52,794 nucleotides of DNA from Massilia mucilaginosa (GTDB lineage: Bacteria > Pseudomonadota > Gammaproteobacteria > Burkholderiales > Burkholderiaceae_D): positions 1 through 52,794 of the forward strand of contig NZ_WHJH01000048.1 of assembly GCF_011682145.1 (NCBI RefSeq), read 5' to 3'. Under the pieces are notes generated by a model. That model did not search any database and was not told where the DNA came from. It saw only the letters and a program-made list of their open reading frames with translations. Both the position numbers and the translations under genes were made by a program. Numbering within the stretch: position 1 is the first letter of the stretch; every line of letters begins with the position of its first letter. Below are positions 22,177 through 52,669 of the stretch, piece by piece.

Positions 22177-23292
22177 ATGATCGTAGGCGTTCCAAAAGAG
22201 ATCAAGAATCACGAATACCGGGTCGGCTTGACGCCGCCGAGCGTGCGCGAATTGAGCTCGCGCGGGCACCAGGTACTGGTTCAGAAAAATGCGGGCGCCG
22301 AGATCGGCTTATCCGACGAGCAGTATGTGGCCGCCGGTGCGAGCATCGTCGACGACGCGACAACCATTTTCGCGCGCGCCGACATGATCGTCAAAGTCAA
22401 GGAGCCGCAGGCGGTTGAATGCGCGATGCTGCGCGACGGCCAGATTCTGTACACCTATCTGCATCTGGCCCCGGATCCGGAGCAAACGGCGGCGCTGGTC
22501 AAATCGGGCGCCGTATGCATCGCGTACGAAACCATTACCGGCGCCGGCGGCGGTTTGCCGCTGCTCGCTCCCATGAGCGAAGTGGCGGGGCGCATGGCGA
22601 TCCAGGCCGGCGCGGCGCATCTGGAAAAATCCAAAGGCGGCATGGGATTGCTGCTCGGCGGCGTGCCCGGCGTTGCGGCCGGCCATGTGGTCATTATCGG
22701 CGCCGGCGTGGTCGGTACCAATGCGCTGCAAATGGCGATTGGCACGGGGGCGCGGGTGACGGTGCTCGATAAGAGCATCGACCGTTTGCGCCAGCTCGAC
22801 CTGGTATTCGGCAACCGCATTTCGACCCAGTATTCGAATGCGCATGCGATCGAAGAAGCGGTGCTGTCGGCCGACCTGGTCATCGGCGGCGTGCTGGTAC
22901 CGGGCGCCGCCGCGCCCAAGCTGGTCACGCGCGCCATGATTGCGAAAATGAAGGCGGGCGCGGTGGTGGTCGATGTGGCGATCGACCAGGGCGGCTGTTT
23001 TGAAACCTCGCATGCGACCACGCACGCCGATCCGACCTATATCGTCGACGGCGTGGTGCATTACTGCGTGGCGAACATGCCGGGCGCGGTGGCGCGCACC
23101 TCGACCTTTGCCTTGAATAACGCGACCATCGGCCACGCCGTGGCGCTGGCCGAAAAGGGCTGGAAAAAAGCCCTGGGCGACGACGTTCATCTGAAAAACG
23201 GCCTGAATGTCTGCAACGGCAAAGTCACTTACGCGGCCATTGCCCAGGCACTCGGGTACGACTACACGCCGGCCGATTCCCTGCTGGCTTGA
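22177..23292 (+). CDS. ald: Alanine dehydrogenase
   Basis: Ald interconverts L-alanine and pyruvate plus ammonia with NAD+. The start at 22177 lies after GGAGG (22167-22171) and gives the typical 371 residues, beginning [20 protein letters not shown]. Lys75 (VKVKEP) and His96 (YLHLAPD) are in the family's substrate-binding positions; the Rossmann domain has [19 protein letters not shown]. It follows putA by 35 bases and is probably cotranscribed. Its 3' end overlaps the convergent nucleosidase gene by 31 bases. Confidence 0.96.
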
Positions 23293-24074
23293 ACCCGGCC
23301 GCGTTTCAGCTCGGCGCAGAAACGCGTGACGATATGAAAAGCATAACGGGAGGCGACTGATTTCACGAAACGCATGAAATCGGTCGCCGCCTCTTCATTC
23401 GCGTTATCCGAAATCGTCCGGATCACCGCAAACGGAATGCCCAGCTCGAAACACACCTGGGCCACTGCCGCTCCTTCCATTTCCACCGCCAGCAAACCAG
23501 GCAGCGCACCGTTCAGCTGCGCCAGGTGCGCGCGTTTGCTGATGAACTGATCGCCGCTGGCGATCAGCCCGCGATGCACCCGTGGCCGTTCCAGGCCGAA
23601 TTCGGCGCGTTCCGCCTCGTCGATCACCGTTTCAAAATCCCTGTCCAGGAAATCGAGGGCCGCACTGGCGGCGCGCTGGCTCATCTGCAAGTCGGACTGG
23701 AAGTGCGACAAACCGGTCAGCGGCACCTCGAAGCGGGGAAACAGGGGACTGGCATCGATGTCGTACTGGACCAGCGATTCGGCCACCACGATGTCGCCCA
23801 CCTTCACGCCCGCATCGCCGGCGCCGGCAACGCCGGTGAACAGGATGTGGGTAACTCCGTACTTTTCCACAAGCGTTGTCGCGGTCATGGCGGCGGCAAC
23901 CTTGCCAATCCGCGACAGGACGCACACAGCGTCGATGCCGGCGACTTGTCCTGATGCGTAGGTGCGCATGCCATGGATGAGCGTGGCGGGGCCTTGCATG
24001 CCTTCCACGAGCCCTTCCTGTTCTTCGTGCAAGGCGCTAATGATGCCTAAACGTATATTTTTTCCTGAATTCAT
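23262..24074 (-). CDS. mtnN: 5'-methylthioadenosine/S-adenosylhomocysteine nucleosidase
   Basis: The protein cleaves adenine from methylthioadenosine and S-adenosylhomocysteine. From ATG 24074 it has 270 residues: NIRLGIISALHEEQEGLVEG, a nucleoside-phosphorylase-fold core with FTGVAGAGDAGVKVGDIVV, then AVEMEGAAVAQVCFELGIPF and RTISDNAN with the catalytic Asp. It is longer than the 232-residue E. coli enzyme, with an insertion around ERAEFGLERPRVHRG. Longer in-frame starts exist at 24107 and 24155 without better signals. It is convergent with ald. Confidence 0.9.
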   Translation of the reverse strand: MNSGKNIRLGIISALHEEQEGLVEGMQGPATLIHGMRTYASGQVAGIDAVCVLSRIGKVAAAMTATTLVEKYGVTHILFTGVAGAGDAGVKVGDIVVAESLVQYDIDASPLFPRFEVPLTGLSHFQSDLQMSQRAASAALDFLDRDFETVIDEAERAEFGLERPRVHRGLIASGDQFISKRAHLAQLNGALPGLLAVEMEGAAVAQVCFELGIPFAVIRTISDNANEEAATDFMRFVKSVASRYAFHIVTRFCAELKRGRVQASRESAGV

Positions 24075-24421
24075 GCTTTGTAGAACCTTTTTTTGGTGAA
24101 CGTGCATGTGGGTAAGTCCGGAGTTTTCCACAAGGATAAACCGTTCTGCGTGCACTGCAAGCTTCGCAAGGCGCGCAGGAGGCCGCCAGCGTCGATTTCT
24201 GCAGACAGTCCCGGCTTGCGGTCCACTGGCGCGCTCGTGGCCGTGGCGGTGCCTCCAGGGGCTTCCCAGTGCATTGGCGGTTCCGGGTTTTTGCCTGGAT
24301 CAACTTGTAAACGCTTGTTTTTCCGGGTTTTTGGCTTTTGGAGGATGTTGCTGTGGATGACTTCGAGGTTATGCACTGCTTTGCCGGGGTTTAGGGTTTT
24401 ATATAAGTAGTATGTATACAA

Positions 24422-24461
24422 ATTTAGTAGTGATAGTAAACGGCCGTTTTTGTGTGGATAA
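24422..24461. repeat. Unwinding-like module 1: TAG repeats plus DnaA box
   Basis: ATTTAGTAGT (24422-24431) is followed by further TAG-like triplets to 24439, then CGTTTTTG and a perfect DnaA box (TGTGGATAA, 24453-24461). The DnaA-trio of other bacteria has this orientation: AT-rich DNA, TAG triplets, a spacer, then the box. It shares its ends with module 2. Confidence 0.55.
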
Positions 24462-24822
24462 GTCCGCTTTTATCAACAGGATCAAGCGTTTACGCGTCGA
24501 AAAAGTCGCTGGAAAACGCCTGTACTTTCAAAGGATGACTGTTGGACAAAAATTTGCCTGTGTACAAAGTCGACGGTTTTGCACATCTCATCCTGTGGAT
24601 ATCCATCGACTTATCCACATGTCCTGCCTTTCAGAGAAGCCGTTCGCGGCATTTTTTTCGTCTTCAACAAAGTGACTCGCACGTTTTTGTGGCCGATTCT
24701 TTTTTTTGGGAAACCTTGAGTTTTTGTTCAGCAAAGAAAATTTTTTTGGCTTTTTGGCCTTTGGCGTTGTTGACTTCGTTTTTCAAAGGTCTTGATGGTT
24801 TACCTAAAAAGGTTAAATATAG

Positions 24823-24864
24823 ATTTAGTAGTAGTTGTTAACAGGTGCGTTTTTCTGTGGATAA
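24823..24864. repeat. Unwinding-like module 2: TAG repeats plus DnaA box
   Basis: ATTTAGTAGT (24823-24832) forms part of TAGTAGTAG (24826-24834); a 21-base spacer ending CGTTTTTC leads to a perfect DnaA box (24856-24864). The arrangement copies module 1 about 403 bases away. AT-rich DNA lies immediately before it. Confidence 0.55.
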
Positions 24865-25049
24865 TGGCAAAAATGCGCTAGAAATCATGAGCTTGCGAGA
24901 GGTATAAGTCGGTGATCAGCTCTGTATCCGGCTGGTACCAATCTGGGACAAATTTTGGCCTGTGAATAAAGTCGCGTTTATCCACAAACGGTGCCTGTGG
25001 ATATCAATAGGCTTATCCACAGGTCGTTTCGAACCTTGACGGAGGTGGT

Positions 25050-26087
25050 ATGGATCTGCACGCGTTGTTTAAGTTTCCAATTTTGCAAGGACCGATGGCC
25101 GGCGGTGCCAGCCGGGCCGAGTTGGTGGCCGCTGTATCGAATGCCGGCGGCCTCGGTTGCATGGCCGGATCGTTGTTGTCGCCCGCAGCGCTGCGCGACG
25201 AGGCCGGCCGGATCAGGTCGATGACCGATCAGCCCTTCCTGATAAATTTTTTTGTGCTCCAGACACCGTCGCCGACGCTGGACGAGGTCGGTGCCGCCGT
25301 TGAACTGCTGCGCCCGGTCTGGGAAAGCCTCGGCTGGGACAACTTGCCGGTGCCGAAACAGTGGTGCCAGGACTTCGATGCCCAGTTCGAGACCTTGATC
25401 GAACTGCGTCCGGCGGCTGCCAGTTTTACTTTCGGCATCCTGACCCCCATCCAGGTCGAGCGTTTGCACGATGCCGGCATCCATGTCATCGGCACGGTCA
25501 CCACGATCGATGAAGCGCTGGCCTGGGAAAATGTGGGCGCCGATGCCGTGATCGCATCGGGAATCGAGTCCGGCGGCCATCGCGGCACCTTTCTTGGACC
25601 GCAAGAGGACGCCACCCTGGGCGGAAAGGAACTCTGGCCCCAGGTGGCCGCAGCCGTCAAGATTCCTGTCATTGCCGCCGGCGGCATCATGACCGGGGTC
25701 GACATTACCGAAGCGCTGGCGCTGGGTGCCCAGGCCGTGCAAATGGGCAGCGCCTTCATCGTGACCGACGAGTCCGGCATTCATCCGGCCTACAAACAGC
25801 GGCTGATCGAAGCGCGCGACACGCCGACCCGCCTGACGCGCGCCTTCAGCGGCCGTTACGCGCGCGGCCTGGAAAACACCTTCATGCGCAAGATGGAAAG
25901 TGTTGAGAAGCAAGTTCCAGCGTATCCTGTCCAAAACGCACTGACCACGGGCATCCGCGCAGCTGCTGCCGAACGGGGCGACACCGAACTGATGTCGCTC
26001 TGGGCGGGCGCCGACATCCGCCGGGCGCGGCCGATGCCGGTCGCCAAACTGATGCAAATGCTGGTGGCCGAGATGCGTACTATCTAA
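25050..26087 (+). CDS. Nitronate monooxygenase
   Basis: The 345-residue FMN enzyme belongs to the 2-nitropropane dioxygenase family, which oxidises alkyl nitronates such as propionate-3-nitronate to non-toxic products. The TIM-barrel protein begins FKFPILQGPMAGGASRAELV, carries the catalytic His in GIESGGHRGTF (around 175), and has phosphate-binding loops AAGGIMTG and ALGAQAVQMGSAFI. It starts 28 bases after the last DnaA box and precedes a GMC oxidoreductase by 34 bases, probably in one operon. Confidence 0.92.
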   Translation: MDLHALFKFPILQGPMAGGASRAELVAAVSNAGGLGCMAGSLLSPAALRDEAGRIRSMTDQPFLINFFVLQTPSPTLDEVGAAVELLRPVWESLGWDNLPVPKQWCQDFDAQFETLIELRPAAASFTFGILTPIQVERLHDAGIHVIGTVTTIDEALAWENVGADAVIASGIESGGHRGTFLGPQEDATLGGKELWPQVAAAVKIPVIAAGGIMTGVDITEALALGAQAVQMGSAFIVTDESGIHPAYKQRLIEARDTPTRLTRAFSGRYARGLENTFMRKMESVEKQVPAYPVQNALTTGIRAAAAERGDTELMSLWAGADIRRARPMPVAKLMQMLVAEMRTI

Positions 26088-32753: not shown

Positions 32754-33596
32754 ATGGAACAAACACTTGCCGTCAACGGTATTGCGATGCACGTCGTGAG
32801 CGAAGGCGAGGGGCCGCCCGTGCTCTTGCTGCATGGATTTCCGGATACGCATGCGGTGTGGCGCTTGCAGATCGATGCGCTGGTGGCCGCCGGCTACCGC
32901 GTCATCGCGCCCGACCTGCGCGGCTATGGCCGGACCGAAGCACCTGGCAACGAAGATGCTTACAGCATGGATGCGCTGCGCGCCGACGTGGTGGGTTTGC
33001 TCGATGCGCTCGGCATCGAGCGCGTGCTGCTGGCCGGCCACGACTGGGGCTCGGTGGTCGGCTGGAACGTGTGCATGCATGCGCCGGAGCGCGTGGAACG
33101 CTTCGTGGCGCTGTCGGTAGGCCATCCGGCCGCCTATACCGAGGGCGGGCCGTTGCAGCTGCTCAAAGGCTATTACGTGCTGGTATTCCAGCTGCGCGGC
33201 ATTGCCGAATCGATGATCAAGGCGTTCGACTGGCATTCGCTGCGCGGCCTGGCCAGCACGCCAGCCCAGTTTGAAGAATGGCGTACGCACCTCGACCGTC
33301 CCGGCCGCCTGACCGCCGCCCTGAACTACTACCGCGCCAACCTGAAAATGTTCAACGCAAGCACCTGGCCGACCGTCAATGTGCCGGTGCTGGGCGTGTG
33401 GAGCTCGGGCGACGTGGCCTTGACCGAAGCGCAGATGCGCGGCTCTGAAAAATATGTCGGCGACAGCTTCGAGTATCAACGCATCGAAAAAGCGGGTCAC
33501 TGGCTTCAGCTGGAAGCAGCCGGAGAGGTAAATGCCTTGCTACTCAAGTTTTTCCAGGAACAGCCTCAAAATGCTTCACGTGAAACAATGTCGTAA
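32754..33596 (+). CDS. Alpha/beta hydrolase, epoxide hydrolase-like
   Basis: The 280-residue protein has the oxyanion motif HGFP (27-30), nucleophile Asp97 in GHDWGS, probable acid Asp220 (WSSGD) and base His249 (KAGHWLQ). An Asp nucleophile indicates epoxide hydrolase or haloalkane/fluoroacetate dehalogenase rather than esterase. GGAGG precedes the ATG. The last codons overlap a near-perfect parS sequence (33572-33587), which constrains the C-terminus (MLHVKQ in one frame, ASRETMS in the coding frame). Confidence 0.9.
   Translation: MEQTLAVNGIAMHVVSEGEGPPVLLLHGFPDTHAVWRLQIDALVAAGYRVIAPDLRGYGRTEAPGNEDAYSMDALRADVVGLLDALGIERVLLAGHDWGSVVGWNVCMHAPERVERFVALSVGHPAAYTEGGPLQLLKGYYVLVFQLRGIAESMIKAFDWHSLRGLASTPAQFEEWRTHLDRPGRLTAALNYYRANLKMFNASTWPTVNVPVLGVWSSGDVALTEAQMRGSEKYVGDSFEYQRIEKAGHWLQLEAAGEVNALLLKFFQEQPQNASRETMS
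33572..33587. promoter_or_regulatory. parS site inside the hydrolase gene
   Basis: TGCTTCACGTGAAACA differs from the parS consensus TGTTTCACGTGAAACA at one base. It lies in the last codons of the alpha/beta hydrolase, 14.5 kb from the parS cluster before mnmG. ParB, encoded in this window, would be the ligand. Confidence 0.8.
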
Positions 33597-34497: not shown

Positions 34498-35429
34498 CCG
34501 TCCGCCTCCCTGGCGGCACCGGCGCCGAAACGTCCGCCCGCCTGGCGCCGGAACTCCTTGGGCGTCACGCCCTTGATCTGCAGGAAGCGGCGGTTGAAAT
34601 TGGCCACATTCTGGAAACCGACGTCGTAGCAGACATTGGTGACATAGTGGTCGGTGTTCATCAGCAACTGGCACGCCTTGTTGACGCGCAGCCGGGTCAC
34701 GAAGTCGGTGAAACTGTTTCCCGTGGTCTTGCGGAAGAAGCGCGAGAATTTGCTCAGCGACATGCCCAGCTGATCCGCCACTGCCTCGGCCGAGATCGGG
34801 TCGCGATAGTTGTCGGTGATGTAGCTCAGGACCGCGTTGACCTTGGCCAGTGTTCCCTCGTCGTCATACGAACGCATGGTGGCGCTCGACAGCAGCCGGT
34901 ATTTGTTGTTGCGCGCCAGCCGGCACATGAAGTTGACGAAGTAGCCGAAACGCTCGGCGCCGCCGCTGCCGCGAATGCGCAGGAAATCCTGTTCGGCCTC
35001 GGCGCCGATGTCGAGGAATTCGATGCCGTAGATCGAGCGCTCCAGCAGGGGCAGCAATTCGCGCAGCTCGGGGATCAGCCGCGCGGCCTGCTCCAGCGGC
35101 TCGTGGGCGAACTGCAGGATCATGTCGCGCAGCAGGACGCCTTCGTCCGGCACGCTGCTCGATATCCAGTTGTGCGGCAGGCGCGGCCCGGTCAGCACCA
35201 GGTGGCCGGGCGAGAATTCGCCGATGTAGTCGCCCACGAACAGCTTGCCGCTGGTCGAGACGATCAGGTGCAGCTCGTACTCGTCGTGGCAGTGCCAGCG
35301 CACGCGCGGGCTGGGGTAGCCATGCTCGATGTAATGGACGATGCCGTCGTAGTTTTCGCGTTCCAGCTCGGGCGGCTTGAGCTGGAAGCGCTGCGCTTCC
35401 ACGTGGCGCATCTGAGGCAAAGTGGTCAT
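34494..35429 (-). CDS. AraC-family regulator of the polyol locus
   Basis: From ATG 35429 (GGGGAGCACGCACC upstream) the protein has 311 residues. A cupin-like N-terminal sensor (RWHCHDEYELHLIVSTSGKL) is followed by an AraC double helix-turn-helix in the last about 100 residues (AEAVADQLGMSLSKFSRFFR and DVGFQNVANFNRRFLQIKGV). Two in-frame upstream ATGs exist (35465 and 35471). It lies downstream of mannitol dehydrogenase on the same strand. It resembles MtlR-type activators in pseudomonads and probably binds the CGATACTTT repeats before smoE. Confidence 0.9.
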   Translation of the reverse strand: MTTLPQMRHVEAQRFQLKPPELERENYDGIVHYIEHGYPSPRVRWHCHDEYELHLIVSTSGKLFVGDYIGEFSPGHLVLTGPRLPHNWISSSVPDEGVLLRDMILQFAHEPLEQAARLIPELRELLPLLERSIYGIEFLDIGAEAEQDFLRIRGSGGAERFGYFVNFMCRLARNNKYRLLSSATMRSYDDEGTLAKVNAVLSYITDNYRDPISAEAVADQLGMSLSKFSRFFRKTTGNSFTDFVTRLRVNKACQLLMNTDHYVTNVCYDVGFQNVANFNRRFLQIKGVTPKEFRRQAGGRFGAGAAREADG

Positions 35430-35477
35430 GGTGCGTGCTCCCCGTTTTTCATCCCCGTTGATCATTCCCATCGTCGT

Positions 35478-38014
<2,537 letters not shown>

Positions 38015-38044
38015 GATCTTGATGTCCTTTGATGTTCTTTTGTC

Positions 38045-38863
38045 TTATTTGACCGCGCCGAATGTCATGCCTTGCACCAGCTGCTTCTGGCAGAACCAGC
38101 CCAGCGCCATGATCGGTGCGATCGCCATCAGCGAGGCGGCCGACAGCTTGGCCCAGAACAGCCCTTCGGGACTGGAGTAGGAGGCGATCAGCCACGCCAG
38201 CGTGCCGGCGTTCGAGGCGCCCAGGTTGAGCGACCAGAACGACTCGTTCCAGGCCCACACCATGCACACCAGCGCGGTCGAGGCGATGCCGCCCACCGAC
38301 AGCGGCAGCACGATGTAGCGGAACTCGTGGAAGACGGTGGCGCCGTCCATGCGCGCCGCTTCCAGGATGTCGCGCGGGAGTTCGCGCAGGCTGGTGTAGA
38401 GCAGCCAGATCATGATCGGCAGGTTCATGAGCATGAACATGATGGTCAGGCCGACGCGCGTGTCGAGCAGGCCGGCATACTGGAAGCAGACGTAGATCGG
38501 CATCAGCGCCCCCACACCCGGCATGTAGCGCGAACTCAGAATGAACTTGAGCAGGCCGACCGTGCCGCCGGTCGGAAAGAACGCCATCGAGTACGCCGCG
38601 GGAATGGCGATGGCCAGCCCGAACACGGTCGAGAGCACGCTGGTGATGAGCGAATTGAACGCATAGCCGGCGTAGTGGTCGCGCGCCATCACCTCCTGGA
38701 AGCTTTGCAGGGTCGGCTCGAAAAACAGCAGCGGCGGCGTGGCGATGGCCTGGCCCTCGGTCTTGAAGGCCATCAGGGCGAGCCAGAAGATCGGGAAGAA
38801 CAGCAGCAGCGCGAAAAACCAGGCGGCTGCCGTGCGGGTGTGCAGTGCGAGTTTGTTGGTCAT
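38045..38863 (-). CDS. smoG: Polyol ABC transporter permease (SmoG/MalG type)
   Basis: The start is ATG 38863 (GGAGACCTTG before it), giving 272 residues with six membrane helices. The binding-protein-dependent transport signature EAARMDGATVFHEFRYIVLP is present. Pairs with the upstream permease. Stop lies 30 bases before smoK. Confidence 0.93.
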   Translation of the reverse strand: MTNKLALHTRTAAAWFFALLLFFPIFWLALMAFKTEGQAIATPPLLFFEPTLQSFQEVMARDHYAGYAFNSLITSVLSTVFGLAIAIPAAYSMAFFPTGGTVGLLKFILSSRYMPGVGALMPIYVCFQYAGLLDTRVGLTIMFMLMNLPIMIWLLYTSLRELPRDILEAARMDGATVFHEFRYIVLPLSVGGIASTALVCMVWAWNESFWSLNLGASNAGTLAWLIASYSSPEGLFWAKLSAASLMAIAPIMALGWFCQKQLVQGMTFGAVK

Positions 38864-38872
38864 CAAGGTCTC

Positions 38873-39733
38873 CTATTTCGCCAGGTTCTTGCCGATGACG
38901 CGCATCAGGAAGAAGGCCGCGATGTTCGCCAGCAGCACCGCGAACAGGGCGCCGGCCGATGCCGCGCCGATGTCGTAGGACTGCAAGGCCTGCTGATAGA
39001 TCATGAAGGTGATGGTGGTGGTCTCGAAGCCCGGACCGCCGCCGGTGGTGGTGAAGATCTCGGCGAACACCGACAGCAGGAAGATCATTTCGATCATCAG
39101 CACCACCGACACCGCGCGCCCCAGGTGCGGCAGGTACAGGTAGCGCAGCTGCTGCAGGTAGTTGGCGCCGTCCATGCCGGCCGCTTCCAGCTGTTCCTTG
39201 TCCATCGACTGCAGCGCCGTCATGAAGATCAGGCAGGCGAAGGGGAGCCACTGCCAGGACACCATCATCACGATCGACAGCAGCGGGTATTGCGACAGCC
39301 AGTCGATGGGCGTGGCGCCGAAGAAGATGCTGACGTGCGCGAACAGGCCGTAGATGGGATTGAGCAGCATGTTCTTCCACATCAGCGCGTTCACCGCCGG
39401 CATGATCAGGAACGGGGAAATGAGCAGCACGCGCACGACGGCGCGCCCCGGGAAGGCGTCGTTGATCAGCAGGCCGAGCGCAATGCCCAGCACCACCGTG
39501 ATCGCCATGACGGAAAACATCAGCACAAAGGTGTTTGCCAGCGCCGGCAGAAAAGCGCCGTCGGTGAAGAAAAAGATGAAGTTGTCGAGCCCGTTGAAGT
39601 CATGTTCGCCGGGAGCGAGCATGCTGTAGCGGACAAAGGAGTAGTACAGGGTGATCAACAGCGGGACGATGGAAATGACGGTGATGGCGAACACCGCAGG
39701 GGTGAGCAAGGTCCGGGGCAGGAGTCGGGTCAT
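38873..39733 (-). CDS. smoF: Polyol ABC transporter permease (SmoF/MalF type)
   Basis: The 286-residue permease has six membrane helices and the EAA loop EAAGMDGANYLQQLRYLYLP that docks the ATPase. Nine bases separate it from smoG. Substrate is inferred from the dehydrogenases of the locus. Confidence 0.93.
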   Translation of the reverse strand: MTRLLPRTLLTPAVFAITVISIVPLLITLYYSFVRYSMLAPGEHDFNGLDNFIFFFTDGAFLPALANTFVLMFSVMAITVVLGIALGLLINDAFPGRAVVRVLLISPFLIMPAVNALMWKNMLLNPIYGLFAHVSIFFGATPIDWLSQYPLLSIVMMVSWQWLPFACLIFMTALQSMDKEQLEAAGMDGANYLQQLRYLYLPHLGRAVSVVLMIEMIFLLSVFAEIFTTTGGGPGFETTTITFMIYQQALQSYDIGAASAGALFAVLLANIAAFFLMRVIGKNLAK

Positions 39734-39832
39734 AATGTTCTCGGGTGCGACAGGGGAACGCCGCCTGCCCGCAGGGGAGGCGACGACCGAAGAAGTCGGA
39801 TGGGGCTGGCGCGTGGGGCGCCAGCGGCGTGC

Positions 39833-41143
39833 CTACTTGTAGTAGCCGCCCTTGCGCATCTCGCGCTCGGCCGCCTGCTGGGTAAGCGCCAGCGCCTGCT
39901 CGACCGTGACCTTGCCCAGAAGAGCCGCGCTCATCTGCTGTCCGGCCGCCACGCCGATGGTCTGGAATTCCGGGATCGCGGCGTATTGCACGCCGACGTA
40001 GGGCGACGGCGGCAGGGTGCTCTGGTTGGGACGGCTGCTGGCAATCGCCGCGCCCTCGGCGGCGGCGAATTTGGCGGCCTTGACGAACTCGGGCGCGGCG
40101 TAGGTCGACTTGCGGGTGCCGGTCGGCACGCTGGCCCAGCCGGACTCCCTGGCGACCAGTTTGATGTATTCCTTCGAGGTGGCCCAGTTGATGAACTTTT
40201 GCGCCGCCTCGGGCTGTTTGGAGCTGCGTGGAATGGCCAGCGACCAGGCCCACAGCCAGTTGGCGCCGCGCTCGGTGGTGGCGACCGGCGACTGTGCGAA
40301 GGCGACCTTGTCGGCCACCTTGCTCTGCTTCGTATCGGTGATGAAGGAGGCGGCGATGGTGGCGTCGATCCAGATGCCGCACTTGCCTTCGTTGTACAGC
40401 GCCAGGATTTCATTGAAGCTGTTCGAGGACGAGCCCGGCGGGCCGTAGTTCTTGAGCAGGTCGACGTAGGTGGTGACGGCGTCTTTCCACGGTTTGCTGG
40501 TGAACTGCGGCTGCCATTTCATGTCGAACAGCTGGCCGCCGAAGGAGTTGGCGATGGTGGTGATCAGTGCCATATTGTCGCCCCAGCCCGGTTTGCCGCG
40601 CAGGCAGATGCCGTACACGCCGTTGGCCGGGTCGTGGATCTTGGCGGCCACGGCGCGGATGTGGCTCCAGGTGGGGCGGTCTTCGATGCTCATGCCGGCC
40701 TTTTTGACCAGGTCGCTGCGGTACATGATCATCGAGCTTTCGCCGTAGAACGGCGCGGCATACAGCTTGCCGTTCAGCGACAGGCCGTCGCGAATCGATG
40801 GCAGCAGGTCGTCGATATCGTAGGCGCTATCGGCCTTGAGCGGAATCAGCCAGTCCTTTTTGGCCCAGATCGGCGCTTCATACATGCCGATGGTCATCAC
40901 GTCGAACTGCCCGCCCTTGGTGGCGATGTCGGTGGTCATGCGCTGGCGCAGTACGCCTTCTTCCAGGGTCACCCATTTGAGCTTGATATCGGGATTGGCC
41001 TGCTCGAAGAACTTGCTCATCTTCTGCATTTCGATCATGTGGCCGTTGTTGACGGTGGCGATCACCAGGTTGGTGGCTGCCAGGGATGCGCTGCTGACAC
41101 AGAGTAGGGCCGTGCACAAGGCACTGCTTGCGATACGTTTCAT
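39833..41143 (-). CDS. smoE: Polyol-binding periplasmic protein (SmoE type)
   Basis: The 436-residue family-1 solute-binding protein has a signal peptide (MKRIASSALCTALLCVSSAS, cleavage near SLAA). The mature start is TNLVIATVNNGHMIEMQKMS. It is the first gene of the minus-strand operon and faces the smoS gene across a 261-base regulatory region. Order smoE-smoF-smoG-smoK-mtlK matches known sorbitol/mannitol loci of Rhodobacter and pseudomonads. Confidence 0.92.
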   Translation of the reverse strand: MKRIASSALCTALLCVSSASLAATNLVIATVNNGHMIEMQKMSKFFEQANPDIKLKWVTLEEGVLRQRMTTDIATKGGQFDVMTIGMYEAPIWAKKDWLIPLKADSAYDIDDLLPSIRDGLSLNGKLYAAPFYGESSMIMYRSDLVKKAGMSIEDRPTWSHIRAVAAKIHDPANGVYGICLRGKPGWGDNMALITTIANSFGGQLFDMKWQPQFTSKPWKDAVTTYVDLLKNYGPPGSSSNSFNEILALYNEGKCGIWIDATIAASFITDTKQSKVADKVAFAQSPVATTERGANWLWAWSLAIPRSSKQPEAAQKFINWATSKEYIKLVARESGWASVPTGTRKSTYAAPEFVKAAKFAAAEGAAIASSRPNQSTLPPSPYVGVQYAAIPEFQTIGVAAGQQMSAALLGKVTVEQALALTQQAAEREMRKGGYYK

Positions 41144-41220
41144 GCTGTCGTCTCCAAGTTTTTTTGCTTTTTATGTTCAATGCAAGGTTTGCACCGTGTA
41201 CAGAATGTAGCACCAGACTC

Positions 41221-41328
41221 CGATACTTTCTGATACTGCAACTCCTAGTGTCGATACTTTTTTGCAATGGGCGCATGCCTGTCCGCCGCTGTATGGAGCG
41301 CTGATGCCGCTTGGATAAAAGTATCGAC
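41221..41328. promoter_or_regulatory. CGATACTTT operator repeats between smoE and smoS
   Basis: CGATACTTT occurs at 41221-41229 and 41252-41260 (31 bp apart, about three helical turns), with a partial copy GATACT at 41232. An exact inverted copy (AAAAGTATCGAC, 41317-41328) is the mirror of GTCGATACTTTT at 41250-41261. Arrangement fits AraC-type activator binding for the two divergent promoters. Confidence 0.6.
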
Positions 41329-41404
41329 TATTGCGTTGGCCGTATCAGGCGCGCCGCCTGATCGTTGCTAGACTTTTCGGCATCACCCACACCCAAGGAG
41401 ATTG

Positions 41405-42214
41405 ATGATGATGTCGACCCAGCACGCAAGCATGAACCGGCTTACATCCAGGCATGCCCTGCTGACCGGAGCCGGTGGCGGGATCGGTCTGGCGGTGGCC
41501 GAGGCTTACCTGACCGAGGGAGCGCGTTGCAGCGTGGTCGACCTGGCCGGCGCGCCGCCGCCCGCGCTGGCGCCGCTGCTGGCGCGCTACCCGGACCGGC
41601 TGCACTACCTGAGCGCCGACGTGCGCGACGCCGGCGCGGTCGCCGCCGTGCTGGCGCTGGCCGCCGAACGCTTCGGCCCGGTCGATATCCTCTTCAATAA
41701 TGCGGCCGTGTTCGACATGGCACCCTTGCTGGAATCGGACCTGGTGATGTACGAACGCATCTTCGACGTCAACGTCAAAGGCATGTTCATCGTGATGCAG
41801 CAGGTGCTGCGGGCGATGGTGGACGCGGGCCGCAGCGGCGCCATCATCAACCTGGCGTCCCAGGCCGGACGGCGCGGCGAAGCGCTGGTGGCGCACTATT
41901 GCGCGAGCAAGGCGGCGGTGATCAGCTATACCCAGTCGGCCGCGCTGGCGATGGCGCCGCACGGCATCCGCGTCAACGCCATTTCGCCGGGGGTGGTGGA
42001 CACGCCCATGTGGGACCATGTGGACGCGCTGTTCGCGCGCTACGAACAGTTGCAGCCGGGCGAGAAGAAGCGGGCGGTGGGACTGGCCGTGCCGCTGGGA
42101 CGCATGGGCACGCCGGGCGACCTGGCCGGCGCGGCGATTTTCCTTGCCAGCGACGAGTCAGCGTACATCACGGCCCAGACGCTGAACGTCGACGGTGGCG
42201 CCGTGATGAGCTAA
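41405..42214 (+). CDS. smoS: SmoS-type sorbitol (L-iditol) 2-dehydrogenase, SDR family
   Basis: The start is one of three consecutive ATGs at 41405-41413 after AAGGAGATTG; 269 residues from the first. It is a classical short-chain dehydrogenase: TGAGGGIGLAVAEA cofactor loop, NNAA, catalytic Ser in ASQAGRRGEA, and YCASK with Tyr and Lys. NLASQAGRRGEALVAHYCAS and the PGVVDTPMWDHVDA region closely match sorbitol dehydrogenase SmoS/PolS. It would oxidise sorbitol to fructose, complementing mannitol dehydrogenase. It is divergent from the transporter operon. Confidence 0.92.
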   Translation: MMMSTQHASMNRLTSRHALLTGAGGGIGLAVAEAYLTEGARCSVVDLAGAPPPALAPLLARYPDRLHYLSADVRDAGAVAAVLALAAERFGPVDILFNNAAVFDMAPLLESDLVMYERIFDVNVKGMFIVMQQVLRAMVDAGRSGAIINLASQAGRRGEALVAHYCASKAAVISYTQSAALAMAPHGIRVNAISPGVVDTPMWDHVDALFARYEQLQPGEKKRAVGLAVPLGRMGTPGDLAGAAIFLASDESAYITAQTLNVDGGAVMS

Positions 42215-43196
42215 GTAGGTAAGCAAAATTTATCCTAAATTTTGCTCCGAAACCTTTCATCAGTGATTCAATTTCATCGAGCAACTGGGCTCCGTTCAGG
42301 CTGACGAAACGCCCAAAAATGTTTGGCATGTTTCCACGAGTTTCGATGCGGTTCAGTTCCGGCTGTAGGGCGGCAGGTAATACAGGTGAAGCGCTTGCCT
42401 TGCCCACTTCCGGCGTTTGCTCTCCACGACATCGCCTTTGTGCATCGCGGCATTATCCATTAACACAATGCGGGGCACCGGTGCGCTTGAGGTTCTACGG
42501 CACGCGACTGGCCAAGCTGTGACCATCGGTATTCACCGGCGGGTTTGGGCTGAAGCCTGATTCGTCAAAATACAGTAGTTCGCACTGGCCGTTTGGGTCC
42601 AGCTTGCCCAACGATGCAATTAGCTGAAGGGCGCGCTCAAGAGCATCCTCGCTGCGCTTTTTTAGACCGTACCGGTAACGTTTGTAGCTGAAATTCATTT
42701 CCTTGAGATAGCGTTTGACGCTGCTTTCGCTAATCGATACCGCCTATTTGCGCTGCCCGCTGTGATGCAGCACGACTGCTCCCGTTCCGCCCTCCGACTG
42801 CGCCAACGCGCGTAGCGCGTGTCGCTGTCGCGCGGTCCATTTCGGCTGGCGTCCCGTATGGCGACTTTCATATAGCCCGGCCAGCCCCAACCTGTTTCAA
42901 AAATCCCCTGCGCGCGCATTCGAGTGCGTGGGTGGCTATGGAAAATTCCCATCTCTTGCAACGTCCGCCACTCGTTCTCGCCCAACCCGCTGAGGTGCAA
43001 GAATTGCTGCCGTGATGGTTGAAAGTCGCCGGCGGCACTGCCAGGCCGACCTGGCAGTGCCACGCGCGAAAGGCACAAGTAACAGCGGCGCCGTTACCTT
43101 AGAGATACTTCTTTTAGACCTTCAATGCCTTTACGATGAATTCATGCACGCACGCCGCGATGCACAGCGATCAACCTCACATCCAAAGGAAACCCC
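42215..43196. pseudogene. Decayed IS630-family transposase (minus strand) and flank
   Basis: Minus-strand fragments, in different frames, read as one IS630-type transposase. The N-terminal part is at about 42700-43060 (GENEWRTLQEMGIFHSHPRT). The DDE part is at 42495-42698 (SYKRYRYGLKKRSEDALERA, ELLYFDESGFSPNPPV). The C-terminal part is at 42240-42407 (LQPELNRIE, NIFGRFVSLNGAQLLDEIES). Frameshifts and stops separate them, so it is inactive. A perfect 9-bp dyad with a 5-base loop (42223-42245) marks the left edge. The remaining 43060-43196 holds the promoter region of the next gene; nothing else is visible. Confidence 0.85.
42223..42245. repeat. AT-rich hairpin at the edge of the IS630 remnant
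   Basis: GCAAAATTT, spacer ATCCT, AAATTTTGC is a perfect inverted repeat. It overlaps the 3' end of the transposase remnant and may be the former insertion-sequence end or a terminator for smoS. Confidence 0.5.
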
Positions 43197-43784
43197 ATGT
43201 CTGCCAATTTTATCAATGCCATGAACGCGATGAATGCCCACTACAAAACCGGCACGCTCCAGGCTTTTGCAATCGACGATCATCTGGAACATTTTCCTCT
43301 GGCGGCCACCGCCAATATGGTGATGCTGAGTGCGACAGCAGATGACACTGCTGATGTCACGGCAGCCATTGCAAAGATCACGGGCGATGCCAAGGCGGCG
43401 GTGTCCACCTCGACGTCGACCCAGCAAACGGGCATCACTACCGCATGCACGGCGCTGTCCGATAACAAAACTAGCTCAGCCGCGCCAAATGACTTCATTA
43501 CGCGCATGACCGCGCAAAGGGATCAGGCCAAGGCAGACGCGGCCAAGACCATCGACACGGCCTACCAGGCAGCGATCGATCTTGGCAAGAACGCCCCGGA
43601 GGCACAGCAAAATTCAATTATTTCCGGTATGCAGACGCTGTCGTCGACGATCAATAACGTCTTCTCGACGATCACCAATTTCGTTTCCGGACTGATTGAA
43701 AAGGTCATGAACATCATCAATGGTATTTACGATTTCTTGAAAGGAATCCAAGACACGTTCAAATCCATCGCCAGCATTTTCTAA
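43197..43784 (+). CDS. Unrecognised small protein A of a paired system
   Basis: The 195-residue protein follows AAAGGAAACCCC and has no signal peptide or known domain. It is Ala/Thr/Ser-rich. A central segment, about 103-160 (MTAQRDQAKADAAKTIDTAY through APEAQQNSIISGMQTLSS), resembles the same segment of the next protein. The last 40 residues (NFVSGLIEKVMNIINGIYDF onward) form a hydrophobic amphipathic helix that could insert in or bind membranes. It is the first gene of a three-gene group with a similar protein and a flavoenzyme. Confidence 0.75.
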   Translation: MSANFINAMNAMNAHYKTGTLQAFAIDDHLEHFPLAATANMVMLSATADDTADVTAAIAKITGDAKAAVSTSTSTQQTGITTACTALSDNKTSSAAPNDFITRMTAQRDQAKADAAKTIDTAYQAAIDLGKNAPEAQQNSIISGMQTLSSTINNVFSTITNFVSGLIEKVMNIINGIYDFLKGIQDTFKSIASIF

Positions 43785-48109: not shown

Positions 48110-48197
48110 TGTTTCACGTGGAACAGCGCAGAGGACTCAGCCGATGTTCCACGTGAAACCATAGAAGTTCGTCAAATAGTACGTTCCACGTGAAACA
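48110..48197. promoter_or_regulatory. Cluster of three parS centromere sites
   Basis: TGTTTCACGTGGAACA (48110-48125), TGTTCCACGTGAAACC (48145-48160) and CGTTCCACGTGAAACA (48182-48197) match the parS consensus TGTTNCACGTGNAACA with 0, 1 and 1 mismatches. Centres are about 35 bases apart. ParB (encoded 3.6 kb away) loads here and spreads, which positions the origin and recruits SMC. The sites also lie in the mnmG promoter region. Confidence 0.92.
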
Positions 48198-48296
48198 CTC
48201 CGTTGCGAGAAAATCGCGGATTCGCGGGGTAAAAGAGTGGAGGGTCTGAAAAGACTCTATAATCGGGCCTCATATCCCCTCGCTCTACACTCCATC

Positions 48297-50228
48297 ATGC
48301 TATTTCCAACTGAATTCGACGTCATCGTCGTCGGCGGCGGCCATGCCGGCACCGAGGCTGCGCTCGCTTCTGCCCGCATGGGCCAGAAGACTTTGCTGCT
48401 CACCCATAACATCGAGACGCTCGGCCAGATGTCTTGCAACCCATCCATCGGCGGCATCGGCAAGGGACACCTGGTCAAGGAAGTCGACGCCATGGGCGGC
48501 GCCATGGCGATTGCCACGGACGAATCCGGTATCCAGTTTCGTATCCTGAACTCGTCCAAAGGTCCAGCCGTCCGCGCCACCCGCGCGCAAGCCGACCGCA
48601 TCCTGTACAAGCAAGCCATCCGTTCGCGCCTGGAAAACCAGCCGAACCTGTGGCTGTTCCAGCAGGCGGTTGACGACCTGATGCTCGAAGGCGACCGCGT
48701 GGTCGGCGCCGTGACCCAGATCGGCATCAAGTTCCGCGCCCGCGCGGTGGTGCTGACGGCGGGCACTTTCCTCGACGGGAAGATCCACGTCGGCCTGCAA
48801 AACTACTCGGCCGGCCGCGCTGGCGATCCGCCGGCGATTTCGCTCTCGGCGCGCCTGAAGGAAATGAAGCTGCCGCAAGGCCGCCTGAAGACCGGCACGC
48901 CGCCGCGTATCGACGGCCGCAGCATCGATTTTTCGCAGATGGCCGAGCAGCCGGGCGACCTCGATCCGGTGCCGGTCTTCTCGGTCATGGGCAATACCGC
49001 CATGCACCCGCGCCAGGTGCCATGCTGGGTTACGCATACCAATGCGCAAACGCACGACATCATCCGTGCCGGCCTGGACCGCAGCCCGATGTACACCGGC
49101 GTCATCGAAGGTGTAGGCCCGCGTTACTGCCCGTCGATCGAAGACAAGATCCACCGCTTCTCGGGCAAGGAATCGCACCAGATTTTCCTGGAGCCGGAAG
49201 GCCTGACGACCAACGAATTCTATCCAAACGGTATCTCGACCAGCCTGCCGTTCGACGTGCAGATCGCCCTGGTGCGCTCGATGAAGGGCATGGAAAACGC
49301 CTTCATCCTGCGCCCCGGCTACGCCATCGAATACGACTACTTCGACCCGCGCGGCCTGAAAACCTCGCTCGAAACCAAGGCCGTGCAGGGCTTGTTCTTT
49401 GCCGGCCAGATCAACGGCACCACCGGCTACGAAGAAGCGGCGGCGCAAGGCATGCTGGCCGGGATCAACGCGGCGCTGCTGACGAAGGGCGTTGACGCCT
49501 GGATTCCGGGCCGTTCCGAAGCCTACCTCGGCGTGCTGGTGGATGACTTGACGACGCAAGGCGTGGCCGAGCCGTACCGCATGTTCACCAGCCGCGCCGA
49601 GTTCCGCCTGAGCCTGCGTGAAGACAATGCCGACATGCGCCTGACCGAAATCGGTCGCAAACTCGGCTGCGTCGGTGACGCCCAGTGGGAAGCCTTCGAG
49701 CGCAAGCGCGAAGCGGTCGCGGTGGAACTGGAGCGCCTGCGCACCACCTGGGTCAACCCGCGCATCCTTGCCAGCACCGAATCGGAACGGGTGATCGGCC
49801 AGGCCATCGAGCGCGAATACTCGCTGGCCGACCTGCTGCGCCGTCCGGGCGTGGACTACGACAAGCTGATGGGCTTGAGCGGCGTGGAAGGCCAGGCGCT
49901 GGCCGGCCCCGGCGTGGCGGATCCGGCGGTCAAGGAACAGGTCGAAATCCAGCTCAAATACGCCGGCTATATCGACCGCCAGGCCAAGGAAGTGGAGCGC
50001 CACGACCACTACGAAAACTTGAAATTGCCTGCCGGATTCGACTACCTCGACATCACCGCGCTGTCGATCGAGGTGCGCCAGAAGCTCGACAAGCAGCGTC
50101 CTGAAACCCTGGGACAGGCATCGCGTATCTCGGGCGTCACGCCGGCGGCCATCTCGCTGCTGCTGGTGCATTTGAAAAAACGTGGTGCGAAAGGCTTCAC
50201 CACCCTGAATGAGGAATTGGCAGGATGA
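48297..50228 (+). CDS. mnmG: tRNA uridine 5-carboxymethylaminomethyl modification enzyme
   Basis: MnmG (GidA), with MnmE, puts cmnm5 on the wobble uridine of tRNAs, using FAD and NADH. The start at 48297 gives 643 residues beginning [20 protein letters not shown]; the FAD dinucleotide fold is evident, followed by [32 protein letters not shown] and [13 protein letters not shown]. Length is normal. The longer frame to 48237 is not preferred. It is followed at 4-base overlap by rsmG. Confidence 0.97.
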
Positions 50229-50872
50229 AGTTTTTCGACCGTAACGCCATTGCGCCAGTGCTGGCCAATGGCGTCAAAGAACTCAAGCTCGACCTGAACG
50301 AACAGCAGCACGCGCAATTGCTCGACTACCTGGCACTGCTGGCGAAGTGGAATTCGGTCTACAACCTGACCTCGGTGCGCGATCCGATGCAGATGGTGAC
50401 CCACCACGCGCTCGATTCGCTGGCCGCCGTATCCGCCTTTGAAGGCGCGACAAGGGTGCTGGACGTCGGGGCAGGGGGCGGCTTGCCCGGCATCGTGCTG
50501 GCGATTGCCCGGCCGGACATGAAAGTAGCGCTGATCGACACCGTGCACAAGAAAACCGCCTTTCTCACGCAAGTCAAAGCCGAACTGGGCCTGGCCAATG
50601 TCACCGTGCACACGGCGCGCGTGGAGCAGTTGCAGGTGCCGCACAAATTCGACGTCATCACCTCGCGCGCTTTCGCCGACCTGTCGGATTTTGTGAACTG
50701 GTCCGGACACCTGCTGGCCGAGGGCGGCAAATTCATCGCCCTGAAAGGCACGGCGCCGGCGGACGAACAGGAGCGGCTGCCGAGCGACTGGAAAGTGAGC
50801 GAATTGCGGCCTATCCAGGTTCCAGGGCTGCAAGCGGAGCGGCATCTGGTTTTCATCGAAAAGAACCTGTAA
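50225..50872 (+). CDS. rsmG: 16S rRNA (guanine527-N7)-methyltransferase
   Basis: RsmG (GidB) methylates G527 of 16S rRNA; its loss gives low-level streptomycin resistance in other bacteria. The 215-residue protein has [20 protein letters not shown], the SAM-binding [20 protein letters not shown] and the [11 protein letters not shown] region. It overlaps mnmG by 4 bases. Confidence 0.97.
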
Positions 50873-50873
50873 A

Positions 50874-50956
50874 CAGTATAAATCATATAAACGGTTTATA
50901 TCATTTAAACCATATAAATCGAATAAACGGTTTATACTATTAAAACAGTATAAATC
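50874..50956. repeat. AT-rich palindromic repeats upstream of parA
   Basis: TATAAAC-G-GTTTATA (50886-50900) and ATAAAC-G-GTTTAT (50923-50935) are two dyads 36 bases apart, flanked by a direct repeat CAGTATAAATC (50874-50884 and 50946-50956) and further ATATAAA or TTTAAAC half-sites. They fill the 114-base gap before parA. They may be a parA operator for ParA autoregulation or another regulator, or an AT-rich structural element. Confidence 0.55.
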
Positions 50957-50986
50957 GTTTGCATCAAAACCATCATAAGAGCATAT

Positions 50987-51757
50987 ATGGCGAAAATATT
51001 TTGCGTTGCAAATCAAAAGGGCGGCGTAGGCAAGACCACCACCAGCGTTAACCTGTCGGCGGGGCTGGCCAAACTGGACCAGCGCGTGCTGCTGGTCGAC
51101 CTGGACCCGCAGGGCAACGCGACCATGGGCGCAGGCATCAACAAGGCCGGGCTCAAGGCATCGACCTATGAAGTGCTGCTGGGCGAGGCCGAGGTGAGCG
51201 AAGCGCGCACGCGTTCGGAAGCGGGGCGTTTCGACGTGCTGCCGTCGAACCGCGAACTGGCCGGCGCCGAAGTCGAGATGGTCGAACTGGAAAACCGCGA
51301 GCGCCGCCTGAAGGATGCGCTGGCCTCGGTCGACAAGGACTACGACTTCATTTTGATCGACTGCCCGCCGGCCTTGTCGATGCTGACCCTGAACGGCCTG
51401 TGCGCCGCGCATGGCGTGATCATTCCGATGCAGTGCGAGTACTACGCGCTGGAAGGTTTGTCGGACCTGGTCAACACCATCAAGAAGGTGCACGCCAACC
51501 TGAACACCGATTTGAAGATCATTGGTCTCTTGCGCGTCATGTTCGATCCGCGCATGACGCTCTCGCAGCAGGTGTCGGCCCAGCTGGAGCAGCACTTCGG
51601 CGACAAGGTCTTCAATACCATCATCCCGCGCAACGTGCGCCTGGCCGAAGCGCCGTCGTACGGCGTGCCGGGCGTGGTGTTCGATCCGTCCTCGAAAGGG
51701 GCGCAAGCCTACATCGCCTTTGGCGCCGAGATGGTCGAACGCATCAAGACAATGTAA
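50987..51757 (+). CDS. parA: Chromosome-partitioning ATPase ParA/Soj
   Basis: The 256-residue Walker-type ATPase has the deviant Walker A QKGGVGKTT (10-18), then VDLDPQGNATMG and DFILIDCPPALSMLT. Small size without an N-terminal DNA-binding domain marks it as a chromosomal Soj/ParA. It moves ParB-parS complexes along the nucleoid and influences DnaA activity. It is the first gene of a two-gene operon, 33 bases before parB. Confidence 0.97.
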   Translation: MAKIFCVANQKGGVGKTTTSVNLSAGLAKLDQRVLLVDLDPQGNATMGAGINKAGLKASTYEVLLGEAEVSEARTRSEAGRFDVLPSNRELAGAEVEMVELENRERRLKDALASVDKDYDFILIDCPPALSMLTLNGLCAAHGVIIPMQCEYYALEGLSDLVNTIKKVHANLNTDLKIIGLLRVMFDPRMTLSQQVSAQLEQHFGDKVFNTIIPRNVRLAEAPSYGVPGVVFDPSSKGAQAYIAFGAEMVERIKTM

Positions 51758-51790
51758 ACATCCGCATCACACAAAATAGGCAGCACACAT

Positions 51791-52669
51791 ATGGCAACCA
51801 AAAAACTCAAGGGGCTCGGTCGCGGGCTCGACGCGCTGCTGGGCGGCGACGGCGAGGGCGCCAAGCCCGATGCGCCGTCGGTCCTGGCCGTGCACCAGAT
51901 GCAGGCCGGTAAATACCAGCCGCGCACGCGCATGGACGAAGGCGCGCTCAACGAACTGGCCGCCTCGATCAAAACCCAGGGCATCATGCAGCCGGTGCTG
52001 GTGCGCCCGATCGGGCAGGACACGCTGACCGGCGCGCTGCGCTACGAGATCATCGCCGGCGAACGGCGCTTCCGCGCGGCGCAGCTGGCCGGGCTGAACG
52101 AGATCCCGGTGCTGGTGCGCGATGTGGACGACCAGGCCGCCGCCGCGATGGCGCTGATCGAGAACATCCAGCGCGAAGACCTCAATCCGCTGGAAGAGGC
52201 GCAGGGGATTCATCGCCTGATCTCGGATTTCAATTTCACGCACGAACAGGCGGCCACCGCGGTGGGGCGCTCGCGCAGCGCGGTGTCGAACCTGCTGCGC
52301 CTGATGAACCTGGCCGCGCCGGTGCAAACCATGCTGATGGCGGGCGACGTGGACATGGGCCACGCGCGCGCCTTGCTGGCGGTGGACCCGGCCAGCCAGA
52401 TCGCACTGGCCAACCAGGTGGTGGCAAAACGCCTGTCGGTACGCGAGACCGAAAAGCTGGTGGCCAGGGAGCTGGAAGAGCAGGCCAACCCGAGCACCAC
52501 CCGCCAGAAGGAAAAATCGGGTGATATTGCCCGGTTGGAAGAAGAGCTGTCCGACAAGCTGGCCACGCCGGTGTTGTTCAAGATGGGTGCGAAGGGCAGG
52601 GGACAGATGATCATCGACTTTGCCGATCTGGATATCTTGGACGGGGTACTGGCCCGTTTGCGAGCATAA
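51791..52669 (+). CDS. parB: Chromosome-partitioning CTPase ParB/Spo0J
   Basis: The 292-residue protein has the N-terminal ParA-interacting GLGRGLDALLGG, the CTP-binding motif GERRFRA (90-96) and ENIQRED (124-130), a helix-turn-helix (about 147-172, AVGRSRSAVSNLLRL) and a C-terminal dimerisation domain. It loads at the parS sites found in this window (48110-48197 and 33572) and spreads as a CTP clamp. Confidence 0.97.
   Translation: MATKKLKGLGRGLDALLGGDGEGAKPDAPSVLAVHQMQAGKYQPRTRMDEGALNELAASIKTQGIMQPVLVRPIGQDTLTGALRYEIIAGERRFRAAQLAGLNEIPVLVRDVDDQAAAAMALIENIQREDLNPLEEAQGIHRLISDFNFTHEQAATAVGRSRSAVSNLLRLMNLAAPVQTMLMAGDVDMGHARALLAVDPASQIALANQVVAKRLSVRETEKLVARELEEQANPSTTRQKEKSGDIARLEEELSDKLATPVLFKMGAKGRGQMIIDFADLDILDGVLARLRA

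Follow-up and report, generated by a model that had tools for sequence, protein, structure and literature searches.

The DnaA-box cluster beside mtnN

The stretch of DNA analysed here (the window; G000:C359) is 52,794 nt long and belongs to the 7.7 Mb draft genome of Massilia mucilaginosa, which is held in 416 contigs. Near the middle of the window a gap separates mtnN, coding for an MTA/SAH nucleosidase (23262..24074, minus strand), from a FabK/nitronate-monooxygenase-like gene (25050..26087, plus strand). Both flanking genes had been named in an earlier note on this DNA; the mtnN match lies above the NCBIfam cut-off, while the nitronate monooxygenase was matched only below the cut-off of its model. 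The gap itself (24098-25049) was correctly described there as AT-rich, with 46% G+C against 61% in the window, and is likely to be gene-free; mechanically called ORFs of 84–116 aa are present within it. The origin-type genes and parS sites reported around it are also in place: a parS-like site with one mismatch (33572..33587) lies 8.6 kb from the box cluster described below, three more with 1–2 mismatches each (48110..48197) lie 23 kb from it, and mnmG, rsmG, parA and parB are found on the plus strand at 48237..52669. Elsewhere in the window, the A+T-richer left end specifies an 879 aa protein with a SIR2-like domain (506-3142), perhaps an anti-phage defence gene, and six ORFs chosen from 34647-43781, some of them probably on the wrong strand, gave no Pfam matches at 1e-8.

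Twelve DnaA boxes occur within 915 bases of the gap (24107..25021), five of them perfect and seven with one mismatch relative to TTATCCACA. The span first proposed is exact, as the first box starts at 24107 and the last ends at 25021, and the seven one-mismatch boxes were recovered, but a sixth perfect box was not, and the total falls from 13 to 12. About 0.2 boxes would be expected (Markov model of the gap: mean 0.18, maximum 3 among 2000), and the whole window carries 20 boxes with no more than one mismatch, whereas 100 shuffled versions averaged 4.9 (sd 2.2) and never exceeded 11. The gap thus holds the dense box cluster in mainly intergenic DNA that is looked for in an oriC. Also looked for is an A+T-rich stretch beside the boxes, and two 60 bp stretches of 70% A+T are present: one at 24398..24457, a possible melting region that overlaps the first of the two BUS modules described below, and one at 24698..24757, between the modules.

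Many of the boxes are arranged as inverted pairs with a common geometry (9-8-9, 17 bp from start to start). Five such pairs lie in the cluster, at 24107..24132 (one mismatch in each box), 24453..24478, 24594..24619, 24961..24986 and 24996..25021, the third and fifth of which match the pattern TGTGGATATnnATnnnnTTATCCACA. A sixth pair, absent from the earlier note, is found within the mtnN coding region at 23846..23871. Between 23845 and 24196, parts of the 5' end of mtnN, including this box pair, have degenerate copies in the gap some 260 bp away, and it looks as if the cluster had grown into mtnN by duplication.

Two BUS modules, each a perfect DnaA box followed by a spacer and DnaA-trios, are present on the minus strand. 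In module 1 (24422..24461), the box at 24453-24461 is followed by a 13 bp spacer and the series TTA CTA TCA CTA CTA AAT, which is broken by TCA and too interrupted for our strict scan (a DnaA box with at least three strict trios). Module 2 (24823..24864) has its box at 24856-24864, a 21 bp spacer and three uninterrupted trios, CTA CTA CTA, and is the sole strict-scan match in the window. The published BUS program allows spacers of up to 16 bp, fewer than in module 2, and in the accessible part of that account the commonest trio is 3'-GAT-5' and spacer lengths peak at 10–13 bp (PMC8287927). Judged by a box no more than 16 bp from at least three trios, the window offers a run of three at a distance of 21 bp and a broken series at 13 bp, and boxes with at least three trios at 13 bp are present in relatives such as L015, L021, L026 and L028; in L015 and L021 the uninterrupted module reads box-13 bp-TTACTATTACTACTA.

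Conservation and distribution of the cluster

Conservation in related strains had been suggested as a check. By DNA similarity, the cluster was found in all 17 genomes of the genus (the host included), in 10 of 19 genomes from other genera of the family and in 0 of 24 from other families. When seven genomes of the same genus were aligned, 105 of 108 box columns and 35 of 36 trio columns were invariant, compared with 548 of the 808 remaining columns.

Of 145 family genomes, 88 matched the strict BUS pattern; the reversed control matched none. The other 57 gave no match, and 88 is a lower bound because clusters whose trios are interrupted, such as that of G017, escape this pattern. Locus by locus, the strict scan was positive at 29 of the 30 cluster loci, which came from 27 genomes, and at 0 of 16 other loci, which included six priA and seven dnaA loci. 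In 120 stretches taken from G012, G011 and G017 (2.4 Mb, clusters included) it gave four matches, all in the cluster, and found no BUS module in the remainder of this sample.

The inverted-pair pattern retrieved 110 stretches in named genomes, mostly of Massilia, Duganella, Janthinobacterium, Pseudoduganella, Rugamonas or Undibacterium. Ten of these loci were excluded from the count, eight from unrelated taxa, all lacking BUS, and two from MAGs (L229 and L245) that do carry it. A looser rule detected a BUS-like module at 77 of the 100 loci kept and none at the other 23; a relative of mtnN in the same stretch (within 8 kb) was likewise present at 77 of the 100, the two properties being counted separately.

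parS sites and ParAB near the origin are another feature looked for in an oriC; both are present in the window, and parS-like sites were listed in six relatives. In those relatives, 16 of 17 parS-like sites lie 6–20 kb from the cluster or its BUS, and one lies at 61 kb. A reversed parS pattern, used as a control, also matched in three of the six genomes, so single parS-like sites are weak evidence, but their grouping is not.

dnaA, other DnaA-box clusters and strand polarity

In many relatives oriC had been expected to lie beside dnaA, an expectation that fails in the genomes compared here. The dnaA gene of the host is on a contig other than that of the window, and in complete relatives with the cluster the two are 314–719 kb apart (419 kb in G012, 314 kb in G011, 386 kb in G009, about 345 kb in G033 and 719 kb in G017). 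In Janthinobacterium sp. LM6 the distance is about 354 kb, and in G005, whose one contig was rated as 48% complete, it is about 352 kb; in G030, from another genus, the BUS lies 32 kb from dnaA. Within up to 1.5 kb of dnaA, 1–3 DnaA boxes were found at 9 of 11 loci, and none at the two loci that start at the start of their records. In G017, 15 of the 50 perfect boxes of the genome fall within 85 kb around the cluster (C1:5365840-5451044). DnaA boxes also gather near the E. coli origin, according to the accessible part of one study (PMC12371093).

Besides the mtnN cluster, the host genome carries several other intergenic DnaA-box clusters. The site between priA and hemE has 7–9 boxes in four relatives (eight in G017, four of them perfect) and lies 0.2–0.33 Mb from the mtnN cluster in the five relatives compared. 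It shares with the exbB-xseA cluster and a cluster on contig C88 a three-box module of the form box-N5-inverted box-N3-inverted box; priA was confirmed by search, and we take the other genes to be hemE, exbB and xseA from a reading of their sequences. The modules in the host are at C88:51652-51685, C88:55102-55135, C22:129440-129473, C416:37440-37473 and C416:37685-37718, and others occur in the relatives' loci L131, L125, L147 and L149. Altogether, 48 of 60 genomes have the module (17 of 17 in the genus, 16 of 19 from other genera of the family and 15 of 24 from other families), with zero control matches. No three-box module with spacings of 5 and 3 was found in the window. A repeated intergenic unit at G000:C122:6356-6493 (L005) contains two more perfect boxes and fails the three-box scan.

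Three regions of the E. coli genome were scanned in the same way, with spacings of 0–8 and 0–6 allowed and no shuffle control. The region downstream of bioD and the interval from rppH to mutH each gave one match, with spacings of 5 and 3 in both, and the surroundings of oriC gave none. From their positions, we take the two matches to be DARS1 and DARS2. A conserved three-box core in DARS sites, and the restriction of the DARS2 core to relatives of E. coli, are described in the part of the DARS literature available to us (PMC4245941). Lacking a BUS module and having DARS spacing, the priA-hemE cluster looks like a DnaA-reactivating array, a function that we infer for the three-box modules from geometry alone.

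The switch in strand polarity could not be located from plain GC skew, whose signal was too weak, so KOPS-like motifs and k-mer log-odds were used. In leave-one-out trials, 34, 35, 36 and 36 of 42 arm stretches were correctly assigned for k = 5, 6, 7 and 8, with arm labels derived from the same skew data, and single stretches therefore mean little. A GC-skew shift had been proposed earlier as a check; with the k-mer measure the polarity switch fell at the cluster in G017 for k = 6 and 7, for k = 8 it lay about 100 kb away, and counts of KOPS-like motifs near the cluster were mixed. In the other relatives it was displaced by 56–280 kb, in every case towards dnaA: by about 165 kb in G012 and about 120 kb in G011, which are collinear in the origin region and therefore treated as a single case, by 56–127 kb in G033, where the KOPS-like motif is otherwise perfectly polar among 100 of 108 places listed, and by about 185–280 kb in LM6 (100 of 128 places listed). 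Polarity places the origin somewhere from the mtnN cluster to the priA-hemE cluster but does not say at which end. The offset would be explained either by a second site of initiation or by an ancient event that moved or inverted the segment carrying the origin. The displaced switches (G033:C1:1911090-1982492, G060:C1:76915-171310, G012:C1 at about 1.62 Mb and G011:C1 at about 2.02 Mb) lie apart from any DnaA-box cluster that we found, between the oriC candidate and dnaA.

Genes for rRNA usually run away from the origin. The rRNA operons of G033 point away from a place between 1.114 and 2.056 Mb, and dnaA, at 2.20 Mb, is excluded as the origin on that premise. A block at 1.533-1.550 Mb in G012 had been considered as a ribosomal-protein operon, but its protein starts read as his, tat, murA and glt, and the argument for excluding priA that depended on it was dropped.

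A candidate chromosomal origin

The mtnN-side cluster is very probably the chromosomal oriC. The earlier proposal of an origin here is, on sequence grounds, the best-supported reading, resting on the BUS modules, the constrained boxes and trios, the conservation across the family and the proximity of parS. DnaA would bind the strong boxes and the 26 bp inverted pairs, and a DnaA filament starting at the two perfect boxes, 24453 and 24856, would run over the short spacer onto the DnaA-trios, stretching one strand and melting the adjoining A+T-rich DNA. Helicase could then be loaded in both directions on the melted DNA, replication would start here, and the nearby parS sites and ParAB would segregate the new origins.

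The main competitor is the priA-hemE box cluster, which might be the true origin, with the mtnN cluster an accessory or former one. In its favour are its 7–9 boxes in four relatives and, in G012 and G011, its closeness to the polarity switch, to which it fits slightly better there than the mtnN cluster for k = 6, 7 and 8, and rRNA direction is compatible with it in G012, G011, G009, G017 and G033. However, the strict scan found no BUS module at any of the six priA loci, its modules are spaced like those at the DARS sites of E. coli, it lies about 0.2–0.34 Mb from parS in five genomes, and polarity in G017 favours the mtnN cluster far more strongly. We regard this arrangement as unlikely; given the resemblance of priA-hemE to a DnaA-reactivating array, the BUS cluster remains the better origin. 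Slightly less probable again is a joint role, in which the BUS cluster and the DARS-like priA-hemE array, 0.2–0.33 Mb apart, form a two-part origin zone and act together or alternately. If so, the DNA between the sites would keep little net replication polarity, and firing would be coupled to nearby DnaA reactivation.

The earlier note itself offered a DnaA-titrating locus as an alternative, and the existence of other intergenic box clusters in the genome means that a cluster alone is no proof of an origin. A titrating or regulatory role (datA- or DARS-like) in place of an origin fits those other clusters better than the mtnN cluster, where trios adjoin the perfect boxes, the three-box module of the others is lacking, and parS is nearby in all six genomes with parS listed; we give it about as small a chance as the two-part zone. 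That the origin adjoins dnaA, as submitters usually assume, is hardly credible here. In its favour, the LM6 record begins with rpmH-dnaA (dnaA at 701-2074), as records commonly do. Against it, the dnaA locus of the host has one DnaA box, dnaA in G033 lies on the far side of rRNA operons directed away from the origin, and in G012, G011 and G017 dnaA fits polarity worse than either the cluster or priA.

With the mtnN cluster as oriC, Massilia, Duganella, Janthinobacterium and their relatives have a precise, testable candidate origin, marked by a strict sequence pattern in the 88 family genomes counted above and told apart from a second class of DnaA-box clusters with E. coli DARS core spacing. 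The occurrence of that spacing here suggests, by analogy, that reactivation of DnaA by DNA sites extends beyond the relatives of E. coli.

No title or abstract describing this origin was found for Oxalobacteraceae, Massilia, Burkholderiales, Janthinobacterium or Bordetella, nor one describing these DARS-like sites for Burkholderia or Betaproteobacteria, in searches that covered few subscription journals. In the accessible parts of two reports, the skew switch of Cupriavidus metallidurans CHR1 lies about 90 kb from dnaA beside three perfect boxes (PMC2864759), and the exact place of the origin on chromosome 1 of Burkholderia cenocepacia is called unclear, with parS adjacent to the origin (PMC4948915). 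As far as those accounts extend, the BUS modules and inverted pairs set the present locus apart, and dnaA is much farther from the origin here. The E. coli oriC is not beside dnaA either. It likewise has mnmG nearby, but here mnmG is 24 kb away and the box layout differs, and the trio scan found no run of three trios at the E. coli oriC. Like the BUS oriC, as described in the available text (PMC8287927), the cluster combines a DnaA box, a spacer and 3'-GAT-5' trios, with a 13 bp spacer in module 1 and many relatives; it differs from that description in having two modules, interrupted trios in module 1, a 21 bp spacer in module 2 and exact inverted box pairs. With DARS1 and DARS2 of E. coli, in the portions of the literature available (PMC4245941, PMC4585315), it shares a DnaA-box cluster in an intergenic region, but the three-box 5/3 core is carried by other clusters of the host and not by this one. 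The candidate oriC, with its two unwinding modules and conserved inverted pairs, belongs to a known kind of element and sits where few would search for one; the DARS-like modules elsewhere in the genome are more surprising.
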